Virus record (IMG/VR): IMGVR_UViG_3300030098_005295
Span: 1 to 32,525 of that record
Strand: one strand, 5' to 3'
From: a virus
DNA: 32,525 bases
Positions within the stretch are counted from its first letter, which is position 1. Each line of letters opens with the position of its first letter. The translations under genes were made by a program, and so were the position numbers. Below, in pieces: positions 16,159 to 24,646 of this stretch. The notes under the pieces were generated by a model. That model searched no databases, had not been told where the DNA came from, and was given only the letters and a program-made list of their open reading frames with translations.

Positions 16159-16172
16159 TCTATTATAATAGA
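16159..16172. promoter_or_regulatory. Perfect 14-bp palindrome, candidate operator
   Basis: TCTATTATAATAGA is a perfect inverted repeat midway between the repressor promoter and the first early promoter. It is a natural candidate operator for the HTH protein. It also contains TATAAT on both strands but has no -35 at the right distance on either. Confidence 0.5.
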
Positions 16173-16208
16173 ATTAGCATTTATTTTTATAATTCTTTTA
16201 TTTTGCAC

Positions 16209-16236
16209 TTGCGTAAGGATAAAAAACAACTATATT
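16209..16236 (+). promoter_or_regulatory. Early promoter 1
   Basis: TTGCGT (16209-16214), 16 bp, TATATT (16231-16236). The surrounding sequence (TTCTTTTATTTTGCACT upstream; TCAATTATTAAGTT downstream) is shared with similar sites at 18.2 and 24.6 kb. It drives the first early genes. Confidence 0.75.
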
Positions 16237-16282
16237 TCAATTATTAAGTTTATTAATTAATACTAACCCATAGGGGGATATA

Positions 16283-16464: not shown

Positions 16465-16692
16465 ATGCTTAAATGGAAACGTATGGAAGAAACTTACGGC
16501 CTTAGAGCCGTTGACGAAAACACTGGAACAACTTACGAGATAATTCGTTTAGAACATGCACTGCTTGACGTGCAAATGAAACACGGATGGGTTGGAAGTA
16601 TGTTAACCGTAAAAGGCGATAGTTTTGATTTTTTTGCAGTTCACCCGACACAAAAAGAGTGCAAACAACAAGCTGAGGGCTTATGCAAGTAA
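16465..16692 (+). CDS. Early protein of the LKW-R family, copy A (75 aa)
   Basis: A 75-residue protein of unknown function. Its N-terminus, LKWKRMEETYGLRAVDENTG then TTYEIIRLEH, resembles that of the 107-residue protein at 18291-18614 (LKWHRIPDQIGLKAYNI, then TTYEVFR). The two are paralogues. The pattern of strands and the KEAKxxA-like helix at the end suggest a small beta-sheet domain with a C-terminal helix. It overlaps the next gene by 10 nt. Confidence 0.8.
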   Translation: MLKWKRMEETYGLRAVDENTGTTYEIIRLEHALLDVQMKHGWVGSMLTVKGDSFDFFAVHPTQKECKQQAEGLCK

Positions 16693-16970
16693 TTGAAAAA
16701 GATGCTCGTAAAATTGACGAACTCGACCGCCAGTTAGACGACATGAAATATGAAGGTGAAATATTAACCTCTCAATTCATAATTGATGAGGCTCGGTATA
16801 CTTTGGGAAAATTTTTTAGCAATGATTGGTATCACTCGCAAGCATTAGCAGGTGATGAAAATGCCTTGGAGTTTATGGGTTGGGATGTTCGTGAAGCTCC
16901 CAAGCAAGTGCGACAGCTAAAGCGGTTCTTGATAAAACATACGGGAAGCGACCACTACACCGAAAGTTAA
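16683..16970 (+). CDS. Early protein, 95 aa, unknown
   Basis: A helical, charged protein starting MQVIEKDARKIDELDRQLDD, with a likely coiled coil in the first 30 residues and a C-terminal part WDVREAPKQVRQLKRFLIKH. The ATG lies inside the end of the preceding gene (10-nt overlap), so translation is likely coupled. No family recognised. The stop codon is followed by the element with the first micropeptide. Confidence 0.75.
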   Translation: MQVIEKDARKIDELDRQLDDMKYEGEILTSQFIIDEARYTLGKFFSNDWYHSQALAGDENALEFMGWDVREAPKQVRQLKRFLIKHTGSDHYTES

Positions 16971-16978
16971 TAATGGTG

Positions 16979-17047
16979 ATGGGTTGCCTTGCTCCGGCAG
17001 GGCAATTAAACCGCAAGCAACGTCCAAAGCCGTTGCATAACTTTTAG
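16979..17047 (+). CDS. Candidate micropeptide A (22 aa) within a duplicated structured element
   Basis: From ATG 16979 (or an in-frame ATG at 16973, 2 nt after the previous stop) a 22-codon frame ends with LNRKQRPKPLH plus two residues. The same 11 residues, with no synonymous change, end the peptide at 18620-18700. The whole element (16975-17037) also folds: stem 16984-16992/16997-17005 with loop TCCG, and stem 17017-17022/17031-17036. It may be a peptide, an RNA element or both. Translation would depend on coupling, since no SD is present. Confidence 0.45.
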   Translation: MGCLAPAGQLNRKQRPKPLHNF

Positions 17048-17059
17048 GGAGATAAAAAA

Positions 17060-17647
17060 ATGAAATCTATTAGTGCAAACATTCCGGTAGATGCTCCACG
17101 CCGGTTAATTTTTGAACATAAAGAAGATGACACGCTACAAACTTGGGAACAGTGTTCTGGAGATTGGGACGAGGCTCGGCAAAGTTGGTTCTTTAACGAT
17201 ATGCGAAATGCTATACCGTTATATCCTAAAGGCGATAAAAGCTATTACGACCCATATTTAATAGTTAAAAATTTTAATATTGAAAAAGTAGGGTGCGAAG
17301 ATTTTGGCGAATATTGGATTTTATATTCGGAAGTAATAGTGATGGAAGCCAACGAGAAAAACCATCATATTATAGTATGGAAAAAAATAGAGGCAGGGGA
17401 ATGCCCTTCGCCGTTTCCCCATAGCCTCGCCGACACTGGTTACAGAAAACTTGACCACAGTATTGCAACGCCCTTGGCCGTTCGTTTTTATATTTATCAG
17501 GATTTCTTAGATTGTGCCGATTACGCTTGTTGGTTATTTGAGCAGTTACAAAAGCCCGACGCTTGGAAATATTATTTTAAAATTATTGAAAATCAGTTAA
17601 TGGACGAAGATGAGTTTGAAAAATATAAAGCCAATATAAGGGCTTAA
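17060..17647 (+). CDS. Early protein, 195 aa, unknown
   Basis: A 195-residue protein without a recognised family. It begins MKSISANIPVDAPRRLIFEH and is rich in aromatic and acidic residues (DWDEARQSWFFNDM, YYDPYLIV, DAWKYYFKIIENQL). No membrane segment or signal peptide is seen. AGGGAG precedes the ATG by 9 nt. It follows the first micropeptide/RNA element by 12 nt, so that element may control its translation. Confidence 0.8.
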   Translation: MKSISANIPVDAPRRLIFEHKEDDTLQTWEQCSGDWDEARQSWFFNDMRNAIPLYPKGDKSYYDPYLIVKNFNIEKVGCEDFGEYWILYSEVIVMEANEKNHHIIVWKKIEAGECPSPFPHSLADTGYRKLDHSIATPLAVRFYIYQDFLDCADYACWLFEQLQKPDAWKYYFKIIENQLMDEDEFEKYKANIRA

Positions 17648-17662
17648 TAAAAAGGGTAAAAA

Positions 17663-18100
17663 ATGCGAAACGCTAAACTTTTAAAGTATTTAGAAAATAA
17701 AAATTGTGGCCTAACTCTACACGATGGGAAAATAGCTGTTTCAAAATTAGCGGTATTAACCAAAGACATGCAAACAGTTATCGACCTACACCGTGAAACA
17801 ATTATAGAGGATTTGAAAGAACAAACAAAAACACAAGAAAATTTATTTAATCAGATTATGTATTGTAAAAATTGGTCGGGGCTTGAACTAATTTTACAAA
17901 GTGCCGAAAAACTTTTTCACCTTGGGGCAATAGGCGAACAACACTTGGCGGAAATATGTTCAAGGGTATGCACAAGGGCAAAAATTATTCCTAATGACGG
18001 CAAAAATAGCAAGGTTGAAACCGCCTTAAAAATAGAGTTAGTAACCAAGGAAATTGACGGCGAAATAGTAAAATTTCCAAAAAGTTGGGATAATTTATAG
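17663..18100 (+). CDS. Early protein with possible TubC_N-like N-terminus, 145 aa
   Basis: The first 50 residues (AKLLKYLENKNCGLTLHDGK, then KLAVLTKDMQTVIDLHRETI) look like the small helix-hairpin-helix TubC N-terminal domain, which is also found in phage replication proteins. The remainder is helical with three Cys residues (YCKNW, EICSRVCTR) and no recognised family. It lies 15 nt after the preceding gene with SD AAAGGG. The next 190 nt hold no gene but carry A/T-rich inverted runs and early promoter 2. Confidence 0.75.
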   Translation: MRNAKLLKYLENKNCGLTLHDGKIAVSKLAVLTKDMQTVIDLHRETIIEDLKEQTKTQENLFNQIMYCKNWSGLELILQSAEKLFHLGAIGEQHLAEICSRVCTRAKIIPNDGKNSKVETALKIELVTKEIDGEIVKFPKSWDNL

Positions 18101-18216
18101 TTTTTTTTAAAAAAAAACAAAAAAAATAAAATACAATTTCACACTACGGACAAAGGGGTTTTTCTTGTTTGCTGTTTAATAAATAAAATTATTTTTAATA
18201 TTTCTTTAGTTTTGCA

Positions 18217-18245
18217 CTTGTGCTAATGAATAAACAACCTATATT
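18217..18245 (+). promoter_or_regulatory. Early promoter 2
   Basis: TTGTGC at 18217-18222 and TATATT at about 18240-18245, with 16-17 bp between. TTTTGCACTTG upstream and TATATTTCAA match early promoter 1. It starts the second early block. Confidence 0.72.
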
Positions 18246-18290
18246 TCAAGTAAGTTAATTAATTAAACACTTTACAAACGAGGACAAAAA

Positions 18291-18614
18291 ATGTTAATAG
18301 AGAAACTAAAGTGGCACCGCATACCCGACCAAATTGGCTTAAAAGCCTACAACATTAAAACGGATACAACTTACGAGGTTTTCCGGTGCTACGATAGCGA
18401 AACGAACGTATTAATTATAAAAAGAAACTATTCTTTGCAAAACGGCGAATTGGACAACGAAGCCCAACACTTTTATTTTCAAAAGGAAGCCAAGCACAAG
18501 GCACAAGAATTAAATGTTCAAAAGCACCTTGAAATGTTTCCGGAAGATTATGGTATTAAAAAAACCGAGGAAGCCGAGGAACCGGAATTTGTTTTTCCGG
18601 AAGAAGTTATATAA
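18291..18614 (+). CDS. Early protein of the LKW-R family, copy B (107 aa)
   Basis: A paralogue of the protein at 16465-16692 over the first 35 residues (LKW-R....GL-A....T-TTYE). It has an extra C-terminal stretch, acidic and ending EEAEEPEFVFPEEVI, which is probably disordered. SD ACGAGGAC, the same as before the gene at 24688. Like copy A it follows an early promoter of the conserved type and precedes a micropeptide/RNA element. Function unknown. Confidence 0.82.
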   Translation: MLIEKLKWHRIPDQIGLKAYNIKTDTTYEVFRCYDSETNVLIIKRNYSLQNGELDNEAQHFYFQKEAKHKAQELNVQKHLEMFPEDYGIKKTEEAEEPEFVFPEEVI

Positions 18615-18619
18615 AGGTG

Positions 18620-18700
18620 ATGGGTGCCGGCACCTTACCCCACGGGGTGCCGGTATTAAACCGCAAGCAACGTCCAAAGCCGTTGCACTTACTAACTTAA
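18620..18700 (+). CDS. Candidate micropeptide B (26 aa) within a duplicated structured element
   Basis: ATG 18620, 5 nt after the preceding stop, opens 26 codons reading MGAGTLPHGVPV then LNRKQRPKPLH and LLT. The last 33 nt of the element (18655-18687) are identical to copy A. The preceding part has a different sequence but again forms a hairpin (18627-18634 with 18646-18653), and the constant hairpin is at 18667-18672/18681-18686. The DUF932 gene starts 18 nt after the stop, with its SD in a small hairpin (ATCCT-TGGG-AGGAT, 18702-18715). Confidence 0.45.
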   Translation: MGAGTLPHGVPVLNRKQRPKPLHLLT

Positions 18701-18718: not shown

Positions 18719-19834
18719 ATGAAAACTTCTTTAACCGGCGAAGCCCTTTGCCAAAAACTCGACACGCAATTAGCCACAAAGGTAGACTACTTGGCGGATA
18801 CTCAAAAGATAAATTTCCTTAACGATGTTTATGCTTTTGATGGAAATAAAGAAATTGTTAAAAACGACTTTTCGTTAGCTTTTGAAACCTCAGAAGGTAA
18901 CCGAGTTTTTAAGTTAAACGAAATAGCTCACGGCCAAGTTGCTTCCCGTTTGCAAATACCGAAAAAATATTACGACCGGATGCGTACGGACTCGCCTGAT
19001 TTATTGCGTGAAAATGTTTCGCACTGGTTTAATAACGAACCGGAAACCCGAATGGTTAGAACGCTTGGCGGAGATACTGCAAGGGCGTTTTTAAGCGACA
19101 AATATCGCCCTCTCGATAATTGGGATTTAGCCCAAGCCGTTATCCCTACCTTAATAGATCACAAGGCGGAAATCGTTTCGTGCGACATTACCGAAACCCG
19201 TATGTATATAAAGGCCATTAACTACCAATCACAAGGCGAAGTTGAGGTTGGGCAACCGGTAGCCTCGGGCGTTATTGTTTCTAATAGCGAAGTTGGACAA
19301 GGTGCTTTATTCGTTGCCCCTTACTTGGAACGCTTAATTTGCAAGAATGGGATGGTTGTAAACGATTGGGCAAAGCGGAAATATCACGTTGGGGCTAAAA
19401 ACTCGGACGGCCTATCGTTTGACAAGGCTTACCAATTATTCACCGACAGCACCAAAAAGGCAACGGACGAAGCGTTTTGGATGCAGGTGCGTGACCTCGT
19501 AAATGCGGCATTAGATCCCGAGCAGTTGGAAGGGATTTTGGCTCCAATGCGTAACGGCATCCACCGCACGATGAACGGCTCCGCTATTGATGCAATGCCA
19601 ACAATAGAAAAGAATCTTGGCTTGGACGCAAGCGAAAAAAAGGGCATACTTGAAAACTTATTAAAAGGCGATTTAGGAAAATCACAGTGGGGGCTTGCCA
19701 ACGCCATAACCCGACACGCCGAGGACGTGGAATCTTACGATAGGGCTACCGAGTTGGAAGCCATTGGTTACACTGTAGCAACTCAATCAGAACGTGAATT
19801 TTGCAAAACGGTTGGACAAACAATTCAATTATAA
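18719..19834 (+). CDS. DUF932 family protein
   Basis: A 371-residue protein with the features of the DUF932 family common in phages and plasmids: FKLNEIAHGQVASRLQIPKK, then RAFLSDKYRPLDNWDLAQAV, and an SGVIVSNSEVGQGALFVAPY segment. The biochemical role is not established; its place among replication and recombination genes suggests DNA handling. It has a very strong SD (GGGAGG, 5 nt before the ATG) partly paired in a short hairpin, so it is probably highly expressed. Confidence 0.85.
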   Translation: MKTSLTGEALCQKLDTQLATKVDYLADTQKINFLNDVYAFDGNKEIVKNDFSLAFETSEGNRVFKLNEIAHGQVASRLQIPKKYYDRMRTDSPDLLRENVSHWFNNEPETRMVRTLGGDTARAFLSDKYRPLDNWDLAQAVIPTLIDHKAEIVSCDITETRMYIKAINYQSQGEVEVGQPVASGVIVSNSEVGQGALFVAPYLERLICKNGMVVNDWAKRKYHVGAKNSDGLSFDKAYQLFTDSTKKATDEAFWMQVRDLVNAALDPEQLEGILAPMRNGIHRTMNGSAIDAMPTIEKNLGLDASEKKGILENLLKGDLGKSQWGLANAITRHAEDVESYDRATELEAIGYTVATQSEREFCKTVGQTIQL

Positions 19835-24587: not shown

Positions 24588-24617
24588 AAAAAACTTAATA
24601 ATTCTTTTGTTTTACTA

Positions 24618-24646
24618 TTGTGTTATTAAAAAAAGAACCATATATT
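24618..24646 (+). promoter_or_regulatory. Early promoter 3
   Basis: TTGTGT (24618-24623), 17 bp, TATATT (24641-24646), then TTCAATTATTAAGTT as in promoter 1. It is flanked by a perfect 13-bp inverted repeat (24591-24603 and 24649-24661). Confidence 0.75.

Follow-up and report, generated by a model that had tools for sequence, protein, structure and literature searches.

Phage T7 has RNase III sites between its early genes. In prophages, one gene or a small group of genes can be bracketed by hammerhead ribozymes, which were proposed to cut long phage RNAs to mRNAs of operon or gene length; three such clusters were shown to cleave in vitro, and the single one examined in E. coli cleaved in vivo as well (Perreault et al., 2011, PMC3088659). 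In bacteria, both hammerhead and twister ribozymes show enrichment around Mu-like phage genes and around other self-cleaving ribozymes, for a biological reason given as unknown (PMC10085705). The twister, whose type-P5 architecture and U-A cleavage site have been described, is among the commonest self-cleaving ribozymes, and its biological role was regarded as largely speculative in a 2016 review (PMC5408937). Modes of RNA cleavage have also been discussed (PMC6993053).

The window, meaning the whole stretch of viral DNA analysed here (32,525 nt), contains a repeated element which a preliminary description had read as a micropeptide, a structured RNA, or both. The repeat was recovered as described: the 33-nt block ATTAAACCGCAAGCAACGTCCAAAGCCGTTGCA is 100% identical at 17005-17037 and 18655-18687, GGTGATGGG opens both copies (16975 and 18616), and minimum-energy folds give a first hairpin with differing arms and a second, identical one. 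Even with 3 mismatches allowed, a 32-nt core of the block occurred only twice in the window, and it occurred 0 times in 100 shuffles. The whole window was searched against all 4227 Rfam families and yielded two matches above cut-off, both to RF02684 (Twister-P5, clan CL00120, curated gathering cut-off 37.6 bits); a permissive Rfam scan of the window added nothing beyond noise and no other RNA family. Both copies are type-P5 twister self-cleaving ribozymes, a known kind of element:

16975-17036, + strand: type-P5 twister ribozyme, copy 1 (RF02684 match 16975-17034, 41.7 bits, E 1.4e-5; P4 closes at 17036)
18616-18686, + strand: type-P5 twister ribozyme, copy 2 (RF02684 match 18616-18684, 44.8 bits, E 2.3e-6)

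The covariance-model search that the preliminary description had suggested thereby settled the structured-RNA reading, with RF02684 above its curated cut-off for both copies, and the statement that no named element matches was wrong, as the type-P5 twister fits. Using the RF02684 alignment and the predicted folds the parts of the two ribozymes were assigned as follows:

16978-16982, + strand: loop L1, copy 1, with putative catalytic G16978, A16979 and the T1 strand U16980 G16981 G16982 (RF02684 alignment)
18619-18623, + strand: loop L1, copy 2, with putative catalytic G18619, A18620 and the T1 strand U18621 G18622 G18623 (RF02684 alignment)
16983-17006, + strand: stem-loop P1, copy 1, 10 bp (arms 16983-16992/16997-17006; fold -16.2 kcal/mol)
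18624-18656, + strand: stem-loop P1, copy 2, 13 bp (arms 18624-18636/18644-18656; fold -21.4 kcal/mol)
17007-17008, + strand: predicted cleavage site, copy 1, U17007^A17008 (RF02684 alignment position; twister U-A site, PMC5408937)
18657-18658, + strand: predicted cleavage site, copy 2, U18657^A18658 (RF02684 alignment position; twister U-A site, PMC5408937)
17005-17037, + strand: identical 33-nt block, copy 1, comprising the cleavage site, the P2 3' strand, L2 GC, P4 and L4
18655-18687, + strand: identical 33-nt block, copy 2, comprising the same parts

In copy 1, the RF02684 alignment pairs GGU 16975-16977 with ACC 17010-17012 as P2, L2 supplies GC at 17013-17014, and P4 (17017-17021/17032-17036, plus a G17022-C17031 pair) is capped by L4, which reads U17023 C C A A A17028 G17029 C17030. 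L1 and L4 are joined in pseudoknot T1 by three Watson-Crick pairs (U16980-A17026, G16981-C17025 and G16982-C17024 in copy 1, and again U-A, G-C and G-C in copy 2), and the GC of L2 pairs with the GC of L4 in pseudoknot T2 (G17013-C17030 and C17014-G17029 in copy 1; 18663-18664 with 18679-18680 in copy 2). The triplet UAA stands next to P1 at 17007-17009 and 18657-18659, P1 folds as a closed hairpin with the termini on the P5 side in both copies, and the minimum-energy folds return P1, P2 and P4 of both. Each L1 carries a G-A after P2, a pair of residues whose catalytic role is taken from the literature; for its G (G16978 and G18619) this role is presumed by position, from the twister crystal structures.

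The first hairpin of the preliminary description is P1, the sequence-free stem, and the identical block is the catalytic 3' half, in which the majority of the residues that serve catalysis and the pseudoknots lie. Features shared with the type-P5 twister of RF02684 are the UAA site, the L1 G-A, the L2 GC, the L4 sequence GUC(N)NAAGCC, the stems P1, P2 and P4 with no P3, both pseudoknots, and the order of the segments. The window copies differ in the third T1 pair, which is U-A and in RF02684 usually G-C, and in P2, which has 3 bp as against 4 bp in RF02684; both deviations are also present in other phage twisters found here.

Those twisters were collected with ribozyme-only patterns, which ignored gene context, followed by Rfam scans of the IMG/VR records matched. 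The analysed set held 130 twisters from 37 phage records, the window included; record G001 came via a DUF932 search instead. Three pairs of records are near-duplicates (G054/G058, G063/G064 and G066/G077) and two further records are related (G070/G074), which leaves fewer than 37 independent lineages. The viral contigs gave no match to the 31-nt core in an exact search and none to the strict element pattern, neither the window nor two array contigs matched anything in the phage collection at the nucleotide level, and no close relatives of the window phage with the early region were found. Eight bacterial contigs that fitted a relaxed pattern had no Rfam match and were taken as chance. The 47 records of terminase relatives, mostly short fragments, contained no twister, so the element does not evidently characterise that lineage.

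Pairing was retained throughout the phage twisters. T1 was complete in 128/129 parsed sequences, and after reduction to a single sequence for each variant in each record it was paired in 59 of 60, as against a mean of 18 and a maximum of 31 in shuffles. The T1 triplets include UGA/UCA, GUA/UAC, GUG/CAC, AGG/CCU, GCA/UGC, GGA/UCC, CGG/CCG and GCG/CGC, as well as GGG/CCC and UGG/CCA, the last two being types that the search patterns selected, which they did not do for the remaining types. T2 was complete in 116/129 (types include GC/GC, AC/GU, GG/CC and CC/GG), and of the 101 parsed homologues 99 had UAA and 2 had CAA as the triplet at the cleavage site. Compared across these sequences, the U-A pair in the window's T1, in place of the G-C of the family, is a compensatory variant common to other phages. 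This covariation would be left unexplained if the hairpins were transcription terminators or attenuators, a reading we consider very improbable: the P4 hairpin of copy 1 (17017-17036) was flagged as terminator-like by a weak match in that copy only, the same hairpin in copy 2 has no T tract, and the stem is weak (-6.5 kcal/mol).

The same set bears on whether a micropeptide, alone or together with an RNA structure, is encoded in the conserved block. In both window copies the common frame ends in LNRKQRPKPLH, as the preliminary description had noted, the ORFs being 24 and 26 codons long; its coding nature did not hold. Across the 130 homologues the distance from L1 to L4 modulo 3 was uniform (47/44/39), no ATG was present in L1 in 105, and of the 25 with an ATG 10 stop before L4 and the other 15 stay open through L4 with differing peptides. 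The micropeptide was rejected as a conserved feature, no frame being kept across the 130 twisters, and we give this reading practically no credence. The identity of eleven codons without one synonymous difference, which had been called odd for a coding sequence, was indeed observed, and is accounted for instead by catalytic and pseudoknot constraint together with recent intragenomic copying. Catalysis, T1 and T2 restrict a large part of the block; P4, P2 and the linkers are free to vary and yet are identical, so that recent copying or gene conversion between the two copies is likely. Two small genes of an unknown family, 18291-18614 before ribozyme 2 and 16465-16692 shortly before ribozyme 1, are paralogues (BLASTP 32% identity, E 8e-9), and an AT-rich repeat precedes both gene clusters (16172-16243 vs 18181-18252, 71%); the twister-bearing module as a whole was therefore probably duplicated. 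An AT-rich direct repeat, about 70-75% alike, lies at 16172-16243, 18181-18252 and 24595-24634 ahead of three early gene clusters, and these repeats are perhaps phage early promoters.

Identical 3' halves with different P1 were also found within other records (1/1 pairs in G006, 6/15 in G075, 9/91 in G074 and 1/55 in G070). This recurrence is what would be expected if the ribozyme were a passenger, carried to new gene boundaries by recombination together with its flanks and harmless because an intercistronic cut leaves both frames intact, as is the sharing, by many copies in G070 and G074, of the 3' flank as far as the SD, as if copied as a cassette. We nevertheless hold this explanation to be unlikely, given that compensatory changes in T1 and P1 show activity kept under selection, that the ribozymes always lie on the sense strand at junctions and occur in independent phage lineages, and that analogous hammerhead arrays exist.

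Both window ribozymes are situated between genes of the same strand, where the preliminary description had correctly placed the downstream genes according to the ORF list:

16683-16970, + strand: gene upstream of ribozyme 1 (ORF list; stop ends 4 nt before P2)
17060-17647, + strand: gene downstream of ribozyme 1 (SD AGGGAG, ATG 17060)
18291-18614, + strand: gene upstream of ribozyme 2 (ORF list; paralogue of 16465-16692)
18719-19834, + strand: DUF932-like gene downstream of ribozyme 2 (SD GGGAGGA, ATG 18719)

From the upstream stop codons (ends at 16970 and 18614) to the ribozyme start there are 4 nt in copy 1 and 1 nt in copy 2. In both copies the SD and the ATG lie 3' of P4, with post-cleavage leaders of 52 and 61 nt, and predicted cleavage would therefore leave both genes translatable. 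The product of 17060-17647 had no Pfam and no PHROG match, and that of 18719-19834 matched phrog_1362 (E 3.5e-49) and Pfam DUF932 at 22.0 bits, slightly below the 23-bit cut-off.

The positions of the other twisters were compared with random same-strand positions in two sets, the first of 97 non-identical twisters, counting the stop of any ORF of at least 35 codons; the figures are descriptive, copies within one genome not being independent. In the first set an upstream stop lay within 20 nt of P2 in 85/97 (random, 17%), a strict SD and start within 60 nt downstream were found in 89/97 (19%), and both in 78/97 (3.3%). The second set had the stop within 20 nt in 26/28 (21%) and the strict SD in 11/28, this low count being due to AAAGGGG-type sites before the start in many of those phages; under a broader definition of the SD a start followed within 75 nt in 96/102 and 25/28, respectively, compared with about 39% of random positions. 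The placement of the twisters is that of intercistronic punctuation, and the tight spacing of stops and starts is partly to be expected in compact phage genomes.

Counted from the first nucleotide of P2, the stop codon most often ended at an offset of 0 to +2 nt. P2 often contained or abutted the upstream stop, as in the loci L193 (G055), L194 (G056), L195 (G057) and L182 (G074). With a stop overlapping P2, termination by the ribosome could be coupled to folding of the ribozyme. The active twisters would then act as a switch, in which cleavage is gated by upstream translation, a ribosome at the stop (0-4 nt before P2) covering P2 and L1 and delaying folding, or by a ligand or protein bound at P1. 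The frequent abutment or overlap of stop and P2 suits such gating, as does the free variation of the P1 loops, which could hold sensors, and an engineered twister has served in E. coli as a switch controlled by a ligand (PMC5052635). P1, however, is mostly a short plain hairpin with no conserved aptamer-like loop, and compactness alone could explain the tight spacing; we judge a switch to be improbable.

The number of twisters per record ranged from 1 to 14, with all copies of a record on one strand; most related records hold 2-14, and many consecutive copies are separated by one gene. The densest was G074, with 14 twisters within 5.8 kb, followed by G070 with 11. These lie in single phage operons (L182, G074:22500-30688; L183, G070:22500-31500), mostly one gene apart, and share a common 3' flank (...CACTCACTCACAAGGAGCA...) that reaches the start codon. 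In 20 array regions, whose records had been picked via the P5 pattern although their other junctions had not, Twister-P5 alone reached the Rfam cut-off and no other ribozyme class did so. The window shows the same arrangement, same-strand ribozymes on either side of one gene or a few genes, with its two copies around three genes; this pair is modest, and the dense arrays are the more interesting observation.

Pfam DUF932 was present in 12/37 twister records and in 1/48 twister-free comparison records (Fisher p 1e-4), a comparison set unmatched for lineage or completeness, and the association is considered a lead. A twister directly adjoins the DUF932 gene in the window and in G055, G060, G069, G076, G006, G094, G103 and G116, upstream, downstream or on both sides of it in diverse phages, and in G056 and G080 a twister adjoins genes that resemble the DUF932 gene of G055 without a Pfam match. 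In G001, G063 and G064 the DUF932 gene has no directly adjacent twister. Among three DUF932 relatives only G001 contained a twister, and that lies over 4 kb away from the DUF932 gene of this record. This twister (L003 1724-1793, corresponding to G001:21766-21835) scored 39 bits in the profile search and was absent from the cmscan listing of L003, apparently a filter effect; it fits the motif by sequence and was kept with little weight. The dense arrays and the DUF932 association may be new; no claim to a first description is made for the arrays.

We consider it fairly probable, judging from sequence and gene order, that the twisters cut polycistronic early phage mRNA into gene-sized units independently of nucleases. 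Each copy would be transcribed within the polycistronic early mRNA, where P1, P2 and P4 would fold and be locked by the two pseudoknots, and self-cleavage, a property of the family, would fall between the U and the A at the foot of P1. The upstream product would carry the full CDS with its stop, a 3'-terminal P1 hairpin and a 2',3'-cyclic phosphate, being complete and P1-ended since P1 is a closed hairpin in the P5 permutation. The downstream product would have a 5'-OH and the P4 hairpin at its head, with the ribosome-binding site and the start codon intact behind them. With closed hairpins on both products, as the P5 form suggests, the ends would resist exonucleases and 5'-end-sensing decay, and the genes of one operon would then be expressed and decay independently. 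Both the cleavage activity of the window copies and its effect on stability and expression are predictions. In the engineered RiboJ part a hairpin near the ribozyme-made 5' end is reported to have a stabilising role (PMC6993053); cleavage by an engineered twister in a 5'-UTR in E. coli seemed to be without effect on mRNA stability (PMC5052635), which counts against stabilisation.

The proposed processing resembles that of the prophage hammerhead clusters in that several small self-cleaving ribozymes share a strand and sit at gene boundaries within a phage operon, and differs in the ribozyme class and fold and in that cleavage was demonstrated there and is predicted here (PMC3088659). The T7 RNase III sites are likewise intercistronic hairpins at which early polycistronic mRNA is cut and which can leave a stabilising 3' hairpin. 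In T7 the cut is made by a host protein nuclease, whereas in the window the RNA would cut itself, leaving a 2',3'-cyclic phosphate and a 5'-OH.

More tentatively, and with doubt outweighing confidence, diverse phages may follow an operon grammar of stop, twister, SD and start at up to 14 successive junctions, by which mRNAs would be cut autonomously into mostly single-gene units whose ends are protected, perhaps under gating by the ribosome at the stop that overlaps P2, the P5 form being favoured for its closed hairpins on both products. For a ribozyme family so common, phage operons with twisters at successive junctions offer a specific and easily tested hypothesis, that of a self-processing mRNA, for which the window is a modest two-copy example and the 11- and 14-copy arrays would be the better model systems.
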